IMG/VR virus record: IMGVR_UViG_3300026534_000010
Location: 1 to 22,830 of that record
Length of the DNA: 22,830 nucleotides
Strand: one strand, 5' to 3'
Source: a virus
Shown here: piece by piece, positions 3,568 to 18,421 of the stretch
Layout of the letters: every line of letters starts with the position of its first letter
Position numbering within the stretch: position 1 is the stretch's first letter
The notes under the pieces: generated by a model
Seen by the model: the letters and a program-made list of their open reading frames with translations, nothing else
The model's database searches: none
What the model was told of the DNA's origin: nothing
Program-made: the position numbers and the translations under genes

Positions 3568-5159
3568 GCCTGTGGCAGGACATCATCGAGCGGGCGCGCC
3601 GGGCCATTGGCCGCGACCCGGCGGGCAAAGCGCTGATTGCGGGCCGGGCGCAGCCGGACTGGGGCGAGACGGTGATTGCCGGCATGACGCCGGGGCGCAT
3701 GGCGGCGGTGCTGCGCGATGCCGCGGAAGGCGCGGCGGAGGACTTCCTGACGCTGGCGGAGGAGCTGGAGGAGATCGATCCGCACTACCGCGCCGTGCTT
3801 TCCACCCGCAAGCTGGCGGTGGCCGGGCTGCAGCCGGACGTGGAGCCGGCGGCGGAGGACGCGGCTGCGCGCGAGGTGGCCGACTACGTGCGCGAGATAG
3901 TGGAGGCACCGGCCTTCAGCGGCCTGTTGCACGACCTGCTGGACGGGCTGGGCAAGGGCTATGCGGTGGTGCGTATCGTGTGGGATACCAGCGGCACGCG
4001 CTGGCTGCCGGCAGCCTATGTGTGGGAGCGCCCGCAGCTGTTCGGCTGGTGCCGGCAGCAGCGGCGCATCATGCAACGGACGGAGGATGGCGGGCTGCGG
4101 GACATCGCGCCGCTGCGCGCCATCGTGCATGTGCCGCGGCTGAAGAGTGGCGAGCCGGTGCGGGGCGCGCTGGCGCGCGTGTGCGCCTGGAGCCTGCTTT
4201 ACAAGAATTACACGCTGAAGGACTGGATGCGCTTCCTGGACGTGTATGGCCTGCCGCTGCGCCTGGGCAAATACAGCGCCACGGCGACGGAGGAGGACAA
4301 GCGCAAGCTGTTGCGGGCGCTCTATGCCCTGGGCTCGGACGCCGCCGCCGTGGTGCCGGCCAGCGCGCAGATCGAGTTCGTTACCGCTTCCAGCGCCATG
4401 AGCAGCTCCGGCCCGGTGTTTGGCGCCATGGCCGAATACATCGACCGGCAGGTGAGCAAGGCGGTGCTGGGCCAGACCATGACCACGGATGACGGCAGCT
4501 CGCTGGCGCAGGCGCAGGTGCACGAGGAGGTGCGCGCAGACATCATGCGGGCCGATGCCCGGCAACTGATGGCCACCATCAACGAGCAGCTCATCCGCCC
4601 CGCCATCATGCTGAACTTCGGCCCGCAGGAACGCTGGCCGGTGGTCTCGCTGCCGGTGCTGGAGCCGGAGGACATGCGGCAGTGGACGGAGAACGTTACC
4701 GCCTTCATGGATCGCGGCCTGCCGGTGAGCCGCCGGCAGGTGCGCGAGAAGCTGGGCCTGGATGACCCGCGGGACGACGACGATGCGCTGCGCGTGATGG
4801 CGCCCGCAGGCACCCAGGGGGCGGCGGCCAGCGCCACGGCGCATCGGCACGAGCCGGGCTGCCCGTGCTGTGGTGGCAGCCGGGCGCTGGCCACGGCGGG
4901 TGATGCACCGGCAGACGGCGAGATGGACGAGATCGACCGGCTGGTGGCGGCGGCGCTGCCGGAGATGGAAGAGGATGATCCGCTCGGCTCCCTGGTGGAG
5001 CCACTGCGCCGCGCCATTGCCGAGGCTGCCGATTACGACGACCTGCAACGGCGGCTGGCGGCAGCAGTGGCGAAGATGGATGATGCACCGCTGTGCGAGC
5101 GGCTGGCAGTGCTGAGCTGCATCGCCCGCGGGCTGGGCGATGTGCGCGATGCGCCATGA
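3564..5159 (+). CDS. Portal protein (Mu gp29-like, DUF935)
   Basis: A 531-residue portal. Start ATG 3564 is preceded by GGGGAG at 3551-3556 and overlaps the terminase stop; an upstream ATG at 3546 lacks such a site. Family features include the N-terminal LTLAEELEEIDPHYRAVLSTRK, the central YKNYTLKDWMRFLDVYGLPLR, and GQTMTTDDGSSLAQAQVHEE, all typical of DUF935. The portal forms the ring at one capsid vertex through which DNA enters and to which terminase and the neck dock. Near the C-terminus there is a His/Cys cluster (H427, H429, C433, C435, C436) that could bind a metal, then a helical acidic tail. AGGAGG directly after the stop serves the next gene. Confidence 0.93.
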   Translation: MSLWQDIIERARRAIGRDPAGKALIAGRAQPDWGETVIAGMTPGRMAAVLRDAAEGAAEDFLTLAEELEEIDPHYRAVLSTRKLAVAGLQPDVEPAAEDAAAREVADYVREIVEAPAFSGLLHDLLDGLGKGYAVVRIVWDTSGTRWLPAAYVWERPQLFGWCRQQRRIMQRTEDGGLRDIAPLRAIVHVPRLKSGEPVRGALARVCAWSLLYKNYTLKDWMRFLDVYGLPLRLGKYSATATEEDKRKLLRALYALGSDAAAVVPASAQIEFVTASSAMSSSGPVFGAMAEYIDRQVSKAVLGQTMTTDDGSSLAQAQVHEEVRADIMRADARQLMATINEQLIRPAIMLNFGPQERWPVVSLPVLEPEDMRQWTENVTAFMDRGLPVSRRQVREKLGLDDPRDDDDALRVMAPAGTQGAAASATAHRHEPGCPCCGGSRALATAGDAPADGEMDEIDRLVAAALPEMEEDDPLGSLVEPLRRAIAEAADYDDLQRRLAAAVAKMDDAPLCERLAVLSCIARGLGDVRDAP

Positions 5160-5171
5160 GGAGGCGGTGCG

Positions 5172-6446
5172 ATGGCTGATCATGTGCGCTGGACATTCGG
5201 CGACGGCCCGGCGCCGGAGGTCATCCGCTACTTCAAGGAGAAGCAGCTCACCCCCAGCTTTGACTGGCGCGACGTGTGGGCGGAGGAGCATGCCATTGCC
5301 TTCACCGTGGCCAAGAGCGCGGGCTTCGACGTGCTTGAGGACATTCACGAGGAGCTGAGCCGGGCCATCGAGGAGGGGCTGCCGTTTGCCGAGTTTCGCA
5401 AGCGGCTGGAGCCGCGGCTGCGGGCGAAGGGCTGGTGGGGGCGGCAGGAGGTGATCGACCCGGCGAGCGGCGAGGTGGTAACGGCACAGCTTGGCTCGCG
5501 CCGGCGGCTGAAGGTGATCTACGAGGCCAACATGCGCTCGGCGCGCGCCGCCGGGCAGTGGGAGCGGGCGCAGCGCACGAAGCGCATGCTGCCCTACTTC
5601 GCCTACCGGCTGGGGCCTTCCCGCCAGCACCGGGCGCAGCATGTTGCCTGGGCCAGCGCGCCGACCATCCTGCCGGTGGATGACCCGTTCTGGGATACGC
5701 ACTACCCGCCCAATGGCTGGGGCTGCAAGTGCTGGCTGCGGCAGATCAGCCGGCGCGAGGCGCAGCGCCTGGGCGGGCCGACGGAGAGCCCGCAGATCCA
5801 GTATCGCAACTGGATCAACCGCCGCACGGGCAGGATGGAGAAGATCCCCGTGGGCATCGACCCCGGCTGGCACAGCAACCCCGGCAAGGCGCGGGCGCGC
5901 AAGGCAATGGGCAGGTTTTTCGAACGGCTGGAGAAGGAAGGTGGGAAGGCCGCCGAAGCTGCCATGCGCGACTTCTGGCGCTCCGACATCTGGCGGGCCT
6001 GGGTGATGATGGAGCGCTCGCGCGTGCACATGCCCGTGGCGCTGCTACCGGTGGCGGCGGAAGCGCTGCAATCCTCCTCGCCGATGGTGTCCATTTCCAA
6101 TGACACCTTGGCTGCCAAGGTCAGGAAGCACGTTGACCCGAAGAAAGCGCTGCCTGCGGTGGATGAGAATGATCCGGATGCCATACGCCGCCGGGAGCGA
6201 GAACAGCAGCGGCGTGAACATGTCTACAGGTCGCTGCAAGCACTGCTGCGGGACTGGCCGCGGCTGATGGCAAGGGGGCAGGTGCTGAAGGATTTACAGC
6301 CGGGCGCAGTGTGGATCATTGTAGAGGCTGACGGGCTGCTGTGGCGCATCGTGGTGCGCAAGAGCCGCAACGGCTACATGCATGTGCAGACGTTGCACCC
6401 TACCGACCGCAAGCATCTGCATGGCTGGCTGAAAAAGAAGAAATAG
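5172..6446 (+). CDS. Head morphogenesis protein (Mu gp30/F-like, Phage_Mu_F) with extra C-terminal nuclease-toxin-like domain
   Basis: A 424-residue minor head protein preceded by AGGAGG at 5159-5164. Residues about 30-240 are the Mu F/SPP1 gp7-type domain: FDWRDVWAEEHAIAFTVAK, YEANMRSARAAGQW, and the hallmark HYPPNGWGCKCWLRQI, followed by the PGWHSNPG region. It works with the portal in head assembly and is probably injected or neck-located. From about residue 287 a separate domain follows (MPVALLP, then MVSISNDTLAAKVRKH, then VWIIVEADGLLWRIVVRK and GYMHVQTLHPTDRKHL). This resembles the barnase/EndoU/colicin/RelE-like (PBECR) domains known at the end of Mu F proteins, but that match is by eye. 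It ends with a lysine-rich tail, KKKK-TAG, and is followed by a non-coding gap rather than the usual overlap. Confidence 0.9.
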   Translation: MADHVRWTFGDGPAPEVIRYFKEKQLTPSFDWRDVWAEEHAIAFTVAKSAGFDVLEDIHEELSRAIEEGLPFAEFRKRLEPRLRAKGWWGRQEVIDPASGEVVTAQLGSRRRLKVIYEANMRSARAAGQWERAQRTKRMLPYFAYRLGPSRQHRAQHVAWASAPTILPVDDPFWDTHYPPNGWGCKCWLRQISRREAQRLGGPTESPQIQYRNWINRRTGRMEKIPVGIDPGWHSNPGKARARKAMGRFFERLEKEGGKAAEAAMRDFWRSDIWRAWVMMERSRVHMPVALLPVAAEALQSSSPMVSISNDTLAAKVRKHVDPKKALPAVDENDPDAIRRREREQQRREHVYRSLQALLRDWPRLMARGQVLKDLQPGAVWIIVEADGLLWRIVVRKSRNGYMHVQTLHPTDRKHLHGWLKKKK

Positions 6447-6524
6447 CAGCAACAGCCGGGGGACGGGAACACCCCGCAGCCCATGCGTGGGGCTGGCCCA
6501 ATCTGCGCTGCCGCTGCGCTCGTA

Positions 6525-6553
6525 TATATAATGTGTCCGCACGCCCCTGTCCA
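6525..6553 (-). promoter_or_regulatory. Possible sigma-70-type promoter on the minus strand
   Basis: Read on the minus strand, TGGACA (6553-6548) and TATATA (6530-6525) are separated by exactly 17 bases. One mismatch to the consensus -35 and a good -10 in otherwise GC-rich DNA make this notable. On the + strand the same AT block contains a perfect TATAAT (6527-6532), but no -35-like sequence stands at the proper distance. A minus-strand transcript would run antisense to the 3' end of the F gene; no gene is evident there. It could be chance. Confidence 0.3.
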
Positions 6554-6669
6554 GCAGCGGTGAGGCAGTCATCCGGCACGAATCCCTCAGAAGCCGCAGG
6601 AGCGCCGTTGCGCGCTGGCCGCACCCACCCCACCAGAAAATCGTTTGCGCGCATGCTGTCCTATTCGAT

Positions 6670-6701
6670 ACCCCTTTAACGGCGACGTTTTGAACGGGGG
6701 T
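6670..6701 (+). other. Hairpin with GCGA tetraloop in the non-coding stretch
   Basis: AACG (6678-6681) pairs with CGTT (6686-6689) around the loop GCGA, a GNRA-type tetraloop. Outside it CCCC (6671-6674) pairs with GGGG (6696-6699), with TT/AA pairs possible between and a bulge on the 3' side. There is no T-run after it, so it does not look like an intrinsic terminator. It might be a structured RNA element, an operator or a processing site on the late transcript. Function is unknown. Confidence 0.4.
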
Positions 6702-6812
6702 GGAGGGCTGCCGGAGATCGGGCACCGAAAATCGTGCTGGAGTGGGGCGGATTGCGCGCAGCGGGGCGGCGCGCTACAACCGCAGGTGAGATGCAGCAGA
6801 AGGGAGGGGCTC

Positions 6813-7421
6813 ATGTGGGAGGAGCTGAACCACTGGTCTGACTGGCTGGCGCTGGGCATCTTCGGCCTGTTCGTGCTGGCCGCCATCGGCCATCTCATCC
6901 AGGTGTTCACCGGCCCGCATCGCATCCGTGCCTTCTTCCTGGCGCTGATCACGCCGGTGATGGGCGGCATCATCGCCATGATGGTGGGCGCGTTGCTGCA
7001 TCCCGGCGGTGATCACCGGCAGGCGGGCGCACCATCCACCGCCGCGGCGCGCGCGCTGCCGACGCCGGAATGGGCGAAGGATATGCTGCCGATGGTGGAG
7101 AACTGGGCAAAAACATACATCGCGAACGCGGAATGCATGGCGTTTGACTGGCGTGAAAGGCACTACATCCACTGCGTGTCAGCGCCGTATGAAAAGAACG
7201 CCGGGCAAGGGCTGGACATCATCTTCCGGCTGAAGGACGGCGCACTGTATCCGGTCAACGGAACGACGCACGACATCATGAGCTCCGCCAAGGAACACCA
7301 TGGCCTCCCGGATGCGCCGGGTTTCAGGATGAGGCAGCGGTTCGTTCGTGATGGTGGGCCGATGGCTGCGGACATCTTCAATGAGATCAGGCGCCGGCTC
7401 CATCAGGCAGATCAGCCGTGA
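6813..7421 (+). CDS. Moron-like protein of unknown function: two membrane helices plus soluble C-terminal domain
   Basis: A 202-residue protein I do not recognise. Start ATG 6813 follows AGGGAGGGG at 6801-6809. Helix 1 spans about residues 12-33 (LALGIFGLFVLAAIGHLI) and helix 2 about 40-62 (FFLALITPVMGGIIAMMVGA). The loop between them is basic (GPHRIRA), so by the positive-inside rule the loop is cytoplasmic and the roughly 135-residue C-terminal domain faces the periplasm. That domain contains two cysteines (C108, C121) that could form a disulphide. It is not part of the standard Mu or P2 late set and sits between head genes F and I, where it interrupts the close packing. Its 3' end overlaps the minus-strand gene by 35 bases. 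Possible roles (superinfection exclusion, lysogenic conversion) are guesses from position and topology. Confidence 0.75.
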   Translation: MWEELNHWSDWLALGIFGLFVLAAIGHLIQVFTGPHRIRAFFLALITPVMGGIIAMMVGALLHPGGDHRQAGAPSTAAARALPTPEWAKDMLPMVENWAKTYIANAECMAFDWRERHYIHCVSAPYEKNAGQGLDIIFRLKDGALYPVNGTTHDIMSSAKEHHGLPDAPGFRMRQRFVRDGGPMAADIFNEIRRRLHQADQP

Positions 7422-7887
7422 ACTCGAACAACACCTCGTCTTCGCGGGATGGCAACACGACTTTCCATTTCACGATGTAAATGCCGTGAAGTGTCGTATC
7501 TGGAGCAAATGCTCCATCCTCGACCTGGATGAATGCCATATGATGTTCCCTATCAGCTATCCATACCATCTTATCCGGGCGATCCGGTAGCGGCTGCGGC
7601 AGGAGGAGAGAGCCAAAAGGCAAGTGGGCCTTGATACAGCTGGTGTGGATGGCGCTGGCATAATCGGGGATCAGCCGGGCATCATCAAACTGCAGGACAA
7701 GGTCGCTGGCGATGGCAGCGCGAACGCGCGCCTGCTCATTGCTGAACAGCAGGAAAGTTTTGTGTGGCTTCTCGTTTTCTCCCTTGGTGAGCTTGACACC
7801 AAATATGCGTTCGGAGGTCAAATAGATGAAGCTCCCCGGTGTGCACCCCTCTGGCGTCATCATTCGTGCTGCGAATTCGTAATCCAT
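7387..7887 (-). CDS. Minus-strand moron gene, hypothetical soluble protein
   Basis: A 166-residue protein, the only believable minus-strand gene here. Its start ATG (7887-7885) has a strong ribosome site GGGGAGGAGAG directly upstream on that strand. The frame extends upstream to 7944, but the site favours 7887. The sequence begins MDYEFAARMMTPEGCTPG and contains TSERIFGVKLTKGENEKPHKTFLLFSNEQARVR, whose lysine, glutamate and aspartate use and lower GC differ from the shadow ORFs. No signal peptide or membrane helix is visible; predicted alpha/beta. It converges on the membrane-protein gene with a 35-base 3' overlap, and would be transcribed against the late operon, perhaps from the promoter at 7943-7972. 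I recognise no family. Expression in the lysogen is a reasonable inference. Confidence 0.72.
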   Translation of the reverse strand: MDYEFAARMMTPEGCTPGSFIYLTSERIFGVKLTKGENEKPHKTFLLFSNEQARVRAAIASDLVLQFDDARLIPDYASAIHTSCIKAHLPFGSLLLPQPLPDRPDKMVWIADREHHMAFIQVEDGAFAPDTTLHGIYIVKWKVVLPSREDEVLFEFTADLPDGAGA

Positions 7888-7899
7888 CTCTCTCCTCCC

Positions 7900-7917
7900 C
7901 GGGGACAGCCGTCCCCG
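7900..7917. other. Seven-bp inverted repeat at the ribosome site of the minus-strand gene
   Basis: CGGGGAC (7900-7906) and GTCCCCG (7911-7917) form a perfect 7-bp stem with loop AGCC. On the minus strand the stem directly precedes the GGGGAGGAG ribosome site of the 166-residue gene, and its CCCC could alternatively pair with that site. There is no T-run, so it is not a typical terminator. It may affect translation initiation or bind a regulator. Confidence 0.45.
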
Positions 7918-7936
7918 TTCTGATGCCGCACCGGTT

Positions 7937-7953
7937 GCGGGCATTGTGCCCGC
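7937..7953 (+). other. Seven-bp hairpin abutting the gpI start codon
   Basis: GCGGGCA (7937-7943) and TGCCCGC (7947-7953) form a perfect 7-bp stem with loop TTG, ending on the base before the ATG of the protease gene. There is no Shine-Dalgarno sequence before this ATG. The same bases overlap the -10 region of the candidate minus-strand promoter, so the palindrome could equally be an operator. Confidence 0.45.
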
Positions 7954-7972
7954 ATGAGCAGGCGGAAATCAA
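7943..7972 (-). promoter_or_regulatory. Candidate promoter for the minus-strand moron gene
   Basis: On the minus strand TTGATT (7972-7967) and CACAAT (7948-7943) are 18 bases apart, each with two mismatches to consensus. The start codon of the 166-residue gene lies about 55 bases downstream. An independent promoter is needed because the gene opposes the late operon. The -35 lies inside the 5' end of the gpI coding sequence. Confidence 0.4.
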
Positions 7973-8976
7973 CACTCACGGTGAAGCTGGCGCTGGCTGG
8001 CAGCGGGCGGGACTTCGTGCCGCCGGAGTGGATCATGCTGATCCCCGCCGGGCGCATCGAGGCGGTGGACGGGCGCAGCTTCGTCAATGATGCGCCACAG
8101 GCCGTGGTGGCGGCCTTTCAGCGCCAGGGGCTGGAGCTGCCCATCGACATCAACCACCGCATGGAGCTGATGCCGGCTGGCGAGGAGGCGCCGGCAATGG
8201 GCTGGATTGCCGCGCTGGATGTGCGCGATGGCGCCATCTGGGCGCGGGTGGAGTGGACACCGCGCGGCGAAGAGGCCCTGCGCAACCGTGAATATCGCTA
8301 CATCTCCCCGGCGTTCCTGCATGACGAGCAGGGGCGCATCCTGGAGCTGCTCTCCGCCGCCCTGGTAACGCAGCCGGCCTTTCGCATGCCGGCACTGGCG
8401 GCGCGCGAGCCATCTCACCAGACCATCAGCAAGGAGCAGATCATGGACAGGAAAGCCCTGTGCCAGCGCCTCGGCCTGCCCGAGGACGCCGATGACGCGG
8501 CGGTGCTGGCCGCCATCGACGCGCTGAAGAAGGCCACCGCCAGCCAGGACAAGAACTTCGACAAGGACTTCACCCCGGACAAGTTCGTGCCGCGGGCCGA
8601 TTACGACCGGGTGCAGGCGGAGCTGGCTGCTGCGCGCAAGGAGCTGGCGGAGCGCGAGCGCCGCGCCCTGGCCGAGGCCGCCGAGGCGCTGGTGGAGGAA
8701 GGCATCAAGGCCGGCAAGATCGCCCCGGCCAGCCGCGACTTCTGGCTGGGCGTGGCCAGCGAGAACAAGGAGGGCCTGCGGCGCGTGGAGCAGTTCCTGG
8801 CCTCGGCGCCGCAGATCGTGCCGGTGAACGAGCAGGCCGGCAGCGATGATGCCTGCCCGCCGAAGAAGGCGCTGACGGCGGCGGAAAAGCAGGTGGCGGC
8901 AGTGCTGGGGCTGACGGATGAAGAGTTCATCGCTGCCCGCGACGAGGCGGATGGCGGCAACGAGGAGGCTGCGTGA
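7954..8976 (+). CDS. Capsid maturation protease with C-terminal scaffold (Mu gpI-like)
   Basis: A 340-residue protein. Residues about 10-160 are the Mu-like I protease domain: PEWIMLIPAGRIEAVDGR, FPIDINHR-type segment with H68, MGWIAALDVRDGAIWARVEWT, and YISPAF with S118; the histidine and serine are likely catalytic by analogy with phage prohead proteases. Residues about 164-340 are the scaffold: helical, highly charged (ELAAARKELAERERR) and ending in LGLTDEEFIAARDE. In Mu, gpI cleaves the scaffold during head maturation. ATG 7954 is the first in-frame start after an upstream stop (7921), yet it has no ribosome site and directly follows a hairpin. This break in coupling reflects the moron inserted upstream. 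The stop overlaps the next start. Confidence 0.93.
   Translation: MSRRKSTLTVKLALAGSGRDFVPPEWIMLIPAGRIEAVDGRSFVNDAPQAVVAAFQRQGLELPIDINHRMELMPAGEEAPAMGWIAALDVRDGAIWARVEWTPRGEEALRNREYRYISPAFLHDEQGRILELLSAALVTQPAFRMPALAAREPSHQTISKEQIMDRKALCQRLGLPEDADDAAVLAAIDALKKATASQDKNFDKDFTPDKFVPRADYDRVQAELAAARKELAERERRALAEAAEALVEEGIKAGKIAPASRDFWLGVASENKEGLRRVEQFLASAPQIVPVNEQAGSDDACPPKKALTAAEKQVAAVLGLTDEEFIAARDEADGGNEEAA
8443..8976 (+). CDS. Internal in-frame scaffold protein (gpZ-like) nested in gpI
   Basis: Within the protease gene, ATG 8443 is preceded by AAGGAG at 8431-8436 with a 6-base gap, an excellent internal ribosome site that the outer gene itself lacks. Initiation there gives a 177-residue protein beginning MDRKALCQRLGLPEDADDAA, consisting of the charged helical scaffold region alone. 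Mu is known to make its scaffold (Z) this way, from the 3' part of gene I, so free scaffold is produced in excess of protease. Expression here is inferred from the site and the Mu parallel. Confidence 0.75.
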   Translation: MDRKALCQRLGLPEDADDAAVLAAIDALKKATASQDKNFDKDFTPDKFVPRADYDRVQAELAAARKELAERERRALAEAAEALVEEGIKAGKIAPASRDFWLGVASENKEGLRRVEQFLASAPQIVPVNEQAGSDDACPPKKALTAAEKQVAAVLGLTDEEFIAARDEADGGNEEAA

Positions 8977-17229: not shown

Positions 17230-18421
17230 ACAGTTTCTGCACGGCGTTGAGGTCGTCGAGGTGGATGACGGCATCCGTCCCATTCGCACGGTGAAAAGCT
17301 CCATCATCGGCGTCATCGGCACCGCCCCTGATGCCGATGCCGCGGCTTTTCCGCTGAACGAGCCGGTGCTGGTGTTCGGCCCGCGGCAGGCGCAGGCGCT
17401 TGGCAGCACCGGCACCCTGCCAGCGGCGATGGATGACATCTATGACCAGGGCGGCGCGCTGGTGGTGGTGGTGCGCATCGAGGAGGGCGCGGACATCAAT
17501 GCCACGCTCACCAACGCGGTAGGCGATGCGGTGCAGATGAGCGGCGTGCACGCCTTCCTGGCCGCCGAGACCAGGGTGAAGGTAACCCCGCGCATCATCG
17601 TGGCGCCGGGGCTGACCAGCCAGCGCCCGAACGGCCAGGCCAACCCGGTGGTGGCGGAGCTGGCGGGCATCCTGCCGCGGCTGCGCGCCGTGGCCTTTGT
17701 CGATGGGCCCTCCACCACCTTTGCCGATGCCGTGGCCTACCGGCAGGATGTCGGCTCTGACCGCATCATGGTCATCGACCCGCACGTGCTGGTGTGGGAT
17801 GCCGCTTCCAACGCGCCGGTGGCGCGCCCGGCATCCGCCCGGTTCGCCGGGCGGCAGGCGCAGCTGGACAACGATCGCGGCTTCTGGTGGAGCGTCTCCA
17901 ACCAGCCGCTGGCCGGCGTCATCGGCCTGGCGCGGCCCATCAGCTTCAACATCTCGGATACCAACTCCGAGGCCAACCAGCTGAACGAGAACGCGGTCAG
18001 CACCGTCATCCATGCCGACGGCTACCGCACCTGGGGCAACCGCTCCACCACCAACGACCCGATGTGGGCCTTCCTGAGCGTGCGGCGCACCGCCGACATG
18101 GTCTACGAGAGCGTGGAGCAGGCCTTCCGCTGGGCCATGGACAGGCCCATCTCGGCCAATCTCATCGAGGACATCGCCGAAAGCGTGAACCTGTATCTGG
18201 CGCACCTGAAGAGTGTTGGCGCCATTCTCGGCGGCAAGGCGTGGCTGGATCCGGAGCTGAACACCAAGGATCAGCTGATGGCCGGCAAGCTCACCATCGA
18301 TTTTGACATCGAACCGCCGGCGCCGATGGAGCACCTGATCTTCAGGGCGCACCGCAACGCTGGCTACTACACCGAGCTGGTGGACGAGGTGGCGCGCGAG
18401 ATCGCCAGCTCCGCCGCCTGA
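17222..18421 (+). CDS. FI: Contractile tail sheath protein FI (P2 gpFI)
   Basis: A 399-residue sheath protein with AAGGAG at 17209-17214. Hallmarks are FLHGVEVVEVDDGIRPIRTVKSSIIGVIGTAP at the N-terminus, VPRIIVAPG-type segment with PVVAELAGILPRLRAVAFVDGP, NIMVIDPHV-like RIMVIDPHVLVWD, and the conserved C-terminal domain YRTWGNRSTTNDPMWAFLSVRRTADMVYESVEQAF, plus the final strands ISFNISD and LTIDFDIEPPAPMEHL. Copies stack around the tube and contract to drive it through the envelope. Length is normal (P2 FI 396). Confidence 0.97.
   Translation: MPEQFLHGVEVVEVDDGIRPIRTVKSSIIGVIGTAPDADAAAFPLNEPVLVFGPRQAQALGSTGTLPAAMDDIYDQGGALVVVVRIEEGADINATLTNAVGDAVQMSGVHAFLAAETRVKVTPRIIVAPGLTSQRPNGQANPVVAELAGILPRLRAVAFVDGPSTTFADAVAYRQDVGSDRIMVIDPHVLVWDAASNAPVARPASARFAGRQAQLDNDRGFWWSVSNQPLAGVIGLARPISFNISDTNSEANQLNENAVSTVIHADGYRTWGNRSTTNDPMWAFLSVRRTADMVYESVEQAFRWAMDRPISANLIEDIAESVNLYLAHLKSVGAILGGKAWLDPELNTKDQLMAGKLTIDFDIEPPAPMEHLIFRAHRNAGYYTELVDEVAREIASSAA

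Follow-up and report, generated by a model that had tools for sequence, protein, structure and literature searches.

In phage Mu, a strong gyrase site (SGS) is needed at the genome centre for efficient replicative transposition (PMC10052514). The annotation of Mu puts the gyrase cut site at 17879-17880, within the gap between genes G and I; a TTTAA[AC]{1,2}GG motif follows just to the right of the cut. The late promoter P_I is located in this same gap. C activates the late promoters of Mu, P_I among them, and is required at P_I (PMC4461284), and Mor, a related activator, recognizes a 16-bp element of the Mu promoter Pm whose centre lies at -43.5 (PMC4390567). In the Mu-like phages of Pseudomonas aeruginosa, anti-CRISPR genes are accessory genes residing in region G (PMC4378225). 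PBECR domains have been described as fusions to MuF, Mu F itself included (PMC5512222), and in the MuF polymorphic toxins Bxa and Apk2, two immunity genes adjoin the MuF toxin gene (PMC11699363).

The window analysed here is a complete IMG/VR virus record of 22,830 bases with the Mu order of genes: terminase, portal, F, I protease, major head protein and tail genes. This 22.8-kb window lacks transposase genes and is probably a genome fragment. Between F and I it carries two additional genes, designated P0001 and P0002, which a preliminary description made from the sequence had presented as a moron locus whose minus-strand gene is read in the lysogen.

Organization of the F-I interval

The arrangement reported in the preliminary description was recovered when the coordinates were re-derived: 366 non-coding bases (6447-6812) separate the end of gene F at 6446 from the start of P0001, an ORF for a membrane protein on the plus strand, which is followed by an ORF for a soluble protein on the minus strand with a 35-base overlap of the 3' ends (Table 1). 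The accompanying picture of flanking head genes packed with overlaps of 1-8 bases was roughly right, although some neighbours lie 12 bases apart. A consensus scan of positions 6400-8050 found no terminator, as had been stated for the interval of the two genes, and no promoter on either strand. The promoter and terminator of its own that characterize a moron are thus represented here by no consensus match, and by a weak, conserved TTGCG-N17-TA box before the plus-strand gene, a candidate pattern that was picked post hoc with the sequences already in view.

Table 1. Features of the F-I interval and its borders, numbered from the first base of the window.
Feature	Position	Strand	Basis
Gene F, MuF minor head protein, 424 aa	5172-6446	+	Pfam Phage_Mu_F, E=5e-15; phrog_220, E=2e-82
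C-terminal domain of F, swappable, resembling the PBECR nuclease type	5901-6446	+	Nucleotide identity to L170 breaks at ~5900 and resumes at ~6545
Candidate central SGS element, TTTAACGGCG at 6675	6586-6700		Conservation and motif
Candidate P0001 promoter, TTGCGC-N17-TACAAC	6752-6780	+	17-bp spacer length kept in L170 and L010, spacer sequence differing
P0001, predicted two-TM membrane protein with C-terminal alpha/beta domain, conserved Cys108 and Cys121, 202 aa	6813-7421	+	Shine-Dalgarno GGGAGGGG
Convergent 3' overlap of P0001 and P0002, 35 bp	7387-7421		Kept in L170 (35 bp) and L010 (38 bp)
P0002, soluble protein, predicted all-beta (low confidence), 166 aa	7387-7887	-	ATG start with GGGGAGGAGAGAG
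Candidate late-activator operator at P_I, 18-bp dyad CGGGGACAGCCGTCCCCG	7900-7917		Position across loci
P_I -10 box, CATTGT	7942-7947	+	A at -11 in 54% and T at -7 in 46% of 113 loci
Weak candidate P0002 promoter, TTGATT-N18-CACAAT, overlapping the P_I -10 box	7943-7972	-	8/12 matches; missed by the consensus scan
Gene I, head maturation protease	7954-8976	+	Pfam Mu-like_Pro, E=7e-60

A candidate gyrase site in the non-coding stretch

Within the non-coding region, conservation is highest around the motif at 6675. The candidate SGS region belongs to a 164-bp stretch that is 94% identical to L170, a contig of a Hyphomicrobiales MAG, and in L010, the closest relative judged by capsid, identity is 75% across 68 bp. 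Across 95 non-redundant F-I gaps, the motif TTTAA[AC]{1,2}GG was present in 38, where random segments taken from these loci predict 8.3, and it may constitute the functional part of the SGS right arm. In Mu and five other complete Mu-like records, this gap (F-I or G-I) falls at 49-51% of the genome. The putative element therefore resembles the Mu SGS in occupying the same gap, in carrying the same TTTAA-CGG motif and in the central position of that gap in complete relatives; it differs in that a 1.1-kb insert separates it from P_I. Because a candidate central gyrase site lies within the 366 non-coding bases, as it does in the F-I gap across Mu-like phages, these bases probably fall outside the moron, to which the preliminary description had assigned them. 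An Rfam search returned only a sub-threshold match to mir-598, regarded as noise.

Late promoter P_I and the proposed control of P0002

Of 117 loci, 40 have a dyad whose centre falls at -43 to -45 relative to the I start (42 in the surrounding block), compared with four or fewer in distant blocks upstream or downstream; a second, weaker cluster occurs near the start codon. Both arms of the dyad are altered in L010, with pairing retained, and further copies in the window were limited to matches with three mismatches, in a number expected by chance. Across the loci a NANNNT signal occupies -12 to -7. In the window (7900-7953, matching 1866-1919 in L010), the dyad is centred at about -44 and followed by a -10 box, a layout that resembles the binding of Mor at Pm, centred at -43.5. 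In addition, a Shine-Dalgarno-like sequence precedes gene I in 7 of 113 loci and is absent from the remaining 106. The simplest reading of these patterns is a leaderless late promoter whose start point would lie at or near the I start codon. The window and most of the surveyed relatives thus appear to be leaderless at this position, whereas Mu gene I is preceded by the ribosome-site-like AGCAGGAC. Many Mu-like loci also carry an inverted repeat around the -10 box, which in the window overlaps the I start codon.

The placement of P_I bears directly on how the minus-strand gene might be controlled. In the preliminary description, P0002 had a strong ribosome site and its own candidate promoter, and was shut off by collision with late transcription. 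The start codon with its ribosome site GGGGAGGAGAGAG is borne out, but the promoter is reduced to the weak candidate listed in Table 1. Since P_I fires rightwards from about 7954, downstream of P0002, the minus gene is not transcribed through by the I operon; collision with P_I transcription was consequently set aside as a switch, and a collision would require read-through from the F side. Transcription of P0002 would need to start either in the same 66 bases upstream of I or within I itself. The weak promoter at 7972-7943 uses the P_I -10 box in the reverse direction, and the P0002 leader adjoins the P_I operator. Given this shared box, mutual exclusion of the two promoters would be a more economical switch than collision.

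Protein features and conservation of the pair

P0001 contains two hydrophobic helices, an acidic N-terminus and a basic loop between the helices, a charge pattern that predicts both ends of the protein on the outside. The structure model has a pLDDT of 65, with values mostly of 58-87 in the C-terminal domain. Cys108 and Cys121 are conserved in the window, L170 and L010 and oppose each other across a predicted beta-hairpin, an arrangement that in the model is consistent with a periplasmic disulphide and agrees with the two-cysteine periplasmic domain predicted earlier; a periplasmic topology is accordingly favoured by charge and cysteine placement, at the level of prediction. A fold search with this model gave no significant structural match, and Foldseek matches to metallo-beta-lactamases and other proteins were dismissed as noise (E > 0.02, TMq at most 0.26). 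P0002, whose longest in-frame start is at 7944, yielded a poor structure model (pLDDT 49). Sequence searches of both proteins against Pfam, PHROGs, NCBIfam, PADLOC and PDB returned no match for either; specifically, neither matched a PADLOC defence-family model. Profile searches and structure prediction thus assigned no family, in keeping with the initial impression that neither protein belongs to a known one.

Protein identities to the window are 85% for P0001 and 90% for P0002 in L170, and 55% and 37% in L010, whose major head protein is 85% identical. Both frames are intact in the two relatives, with the same gene order and overlaps of 35, 35 and 38 bases in the window, L170 and L010, respectively; the minus-strand ORF, whose presence in close relatives had been a point for verification, is therefore found in both. 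Even where P0002 identity drops to 37%, its frame, start, ribosome site and overlap are kept. Differences in P0002 by codon position were richest at the third position, with 11/5/18 against L170 (chi-square p = 0.024) and 76/57/108 against L010 (p = 0.0003), and the dN/dS values between the window and L170 were 0.56 for P0001 and 0.31 for P0002, alongside 0.16 for the F N-terminus and 0.24 for the portal. The intact frames, retained overlap, codon-position bias and dN/dS argue that the two are not chance ORFs; by these sequence measures, P0001 and P0002 are real genes under purifying selection.

The pair was seen in three genomes only, namely the window, L170 and L010. Viral scans with the P0001 or P0002 protein found L010 alone, and the genome-collection scan found L170 alone; in three further samples of whole genomes, drawn at the level of order (397), phylum (398) and class (385), the L170 genome was again the sole find. 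Co-occurrence at the same site in other Mu-like phages, a check that the preliminary description had suggested, consequently holds for these two relatives but not for other F-I gaps, which lack the pair. GC content is 55-64% over most of the pair compared with 66-72% in the adjacent head genes. The pair is inserted between genes that are adjacent in relatives, and its base composition is unlike that of the flanks, features expected of a moron; with its restriction to three close relatives and the presence of conversion and defence genes in the slot elsewhere, they uphold the original moron reading and support an accessory insert.

Accessory cargo of the F-I slot in Mu-like phages

A gap was present between F and I in 135 of 135 Mu-like loci, often of 100-400 bases, and the larger gaps contain gene G in many loci and unrelated inserts in others. 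A gap at F/G-I is thus the rule among Mu-like phages. Proteins encoded in this slot elsewhere matched AbiTii at E=2e-32, PDC-S42, a group of defence candidates, at E=6e-97 and 1e-48, and a 2TM effector at E=6e-4; a minus-strand gene for a pentapeptide-repeat protein also occurs there. In Pseudomonas phage JBD88a, AcrF3 and a small minus-strand gene occupy the slot, which there is bordered by MuF/G and the protease. The F-I slot is therefore a recurrent cargo site whose contents include anti-CRISPR and anti-phage defence genes.

Several individual inserts illustrate the range of this cargo. Locus L068 (3968-5596) encodes an EptA-type phosphoethanolamine transferase, a possible case of lipopolysaccharide-modifying lysogenic conversion, and in L169 (6926-9864) the gene after a PDC-S42 candidate probably encodes an adenine methylase, as assessed by eye, with a third gene also present. 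In L035, tandem related membrane-protein genes (4912-5790 and 5849-6706) are each preceded by a near-identical TTTAA-CGG element. The F-I gap of L064 (1096-6294) holds a minus-strand gene for an exported-looking protein of 1732 aa, which may be an unrelated insertion or may reflect an assembly join.

The C-terminal domain of F and alternative roles for the pair

Up to base 5900 the window and L170 share 94% identity; they diverge over the C-terminal domain of F and return to 90% at 6545. The two versions of the domain remain relatable by hhalign (probability 99%, 17% identity), an almost invariant histidine stands out in alignment A4, and the L170 version gave a weak match to PBECR2 that fell below the cut-off (E=0.005); the domain thus appears akin to phage BECR nucleases. 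It has been exchanged as a cassette (window 5901-6446; L170 3333-3839) between phages that are otherwise 94% identical.

This variable, PBECR-like domain raises the prospect that P0001 and P0002 protect the lysogen from a nuclease-like F, as in the MuF polymorphic toxins, for which paired immunity genes beside the toxin are documented (PMC11699363). The window shares with Bxa and Apk2 a variable MuF C-terminal domain and two small neighbouring genes, but differs in that the domain swaps independently of both: L170 has a very divergent replacement, while its P0001 and P0002 are still 85-90% identical. An immunity gene would be expected to travel with its toxin domain, and the pair, unchanged across the swap, argues against a domain-specific role, although a broad immunity role would be compatible with these data. 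Moreover, the SGS region separates F from the pair, one of the genes is on the opposite strand, and many phages with a similar F domain have a gap without any gene, which together make protection from F distinctly unlikely. A somewhat less remote alternative, though still unlikely, is a convergent toxin-antitoxin or regulator pair in which P0001 is a membrane toxin restrained by the P0002 protein or by the overlapping antisense transcript: the convergent overlap is retained in all three relatives and a small two-TM protein stands beside a cytosolic one, but neither protein matches a toxin or antitoxin family, the 140-aa folded domain of P0001 exceeds known type I toxins, and the overlap is short.

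Counter-defence, whether anti-CRISPR or anti-restriction, would match what this slot usually carries in the Mu-like phages of Pseudomonas. The window resembles the anti-CRISPR locus (RGP G of JBD88a and D3112) in its slot upstream of the I protease, directly seen in JBD88a with AcrF3, and in being accessory, lower in GC and variable in content; P0002 is also cytosolic and fast-evolving, with 37% identity where the major capsid protein has 85%. In contrast to that locus, however, the genes converge, one of them, P0001, is a predicted membrane protein, and gene G is absent from the slot. Furthermore, the slot has no Aca-type regulator gene, PADLOC, Pfam, PHROG and NCBIfam returned no Acr or Aca homologue for either protein, and P0002 lies on the opposite strand outside the late operon, so that we consider this role improbable. 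Least probable by far is that the two are minor virion or assembly genes, accessory in appearance only; their location inside the head gene cluster speaks for this, whereas the absence of the pair from other surveyed Mu-like phages, the antisense orientation of P0002 to the late operon and the two transmembrane helices of P0001 speak against it.

Proposed function and implications

Slot cargo and protein architecture make exclusion or defence at the envelope the likeliest class, and the pair probably functions in one of these ways. Morons of the HK97 gp15 type are superinfection exclusion morons, and P0001 can be likened to them, by type and not by sequence, as a predicted inner-membrane moron protein encoded by a phage. 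We propose that the F-I interval may be a midpoint control region comprising the candidate SGS, which in Mu organises the genome for transposition, and the late promoter P_I, with a two-gene moron inserted between them. P0001, with its two helices, would reside in the inner membrane, and its domain, braced by a disulphide, is probably periplasmic; the protein probably acts at the cell envelope of the lysogen by excluding or aborting other phages. P0002 would be cytosolic, read leftwards from the P_I region, and probably a partner or modulator of P0001; binding of the late activator to the dyad and rightward firing of P_I would then shut P0002 transcription by promoter overlap. Within this scheme, the sequences themselves establish that both genes are real and accessory, as well as the slot, the SGS-like motif and the dyad and -10 pattern of P_I; periplasmic topology, expression in the lysogen, the shut-off of P0002, the P0001-P0002 partnership and exclusion are what we infer, and we hold the explanation as a whole to be evenly poised. 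The two-part system envisaged in the preliminary description comes down to the co-occurrence of both genes in three of three relatives. That the pair represents a new, convergent two-protein exclusion or defence system, with a P_I-overlapped minus gene that is on in the lysogen and off with the late activator, is accordingly offered only as a tentative proposal of low probability.

Cargo would collect at the midpoint of Mu-like genomes because this is a boundary between late transcription units and because an insert there moves the gyrase site away from the centre by just half of the insert's size. The anatomy of the slot, with a candidate gyrase site, an insert, an activator dyad and an apparently leaderless promoter, offers an explanation for this build-up. 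Together, these findings add two uncharacterised protein families to a slot associated with defence and counter-defence, and make P0001 and P0002 good candidates for phage-resistance screens.
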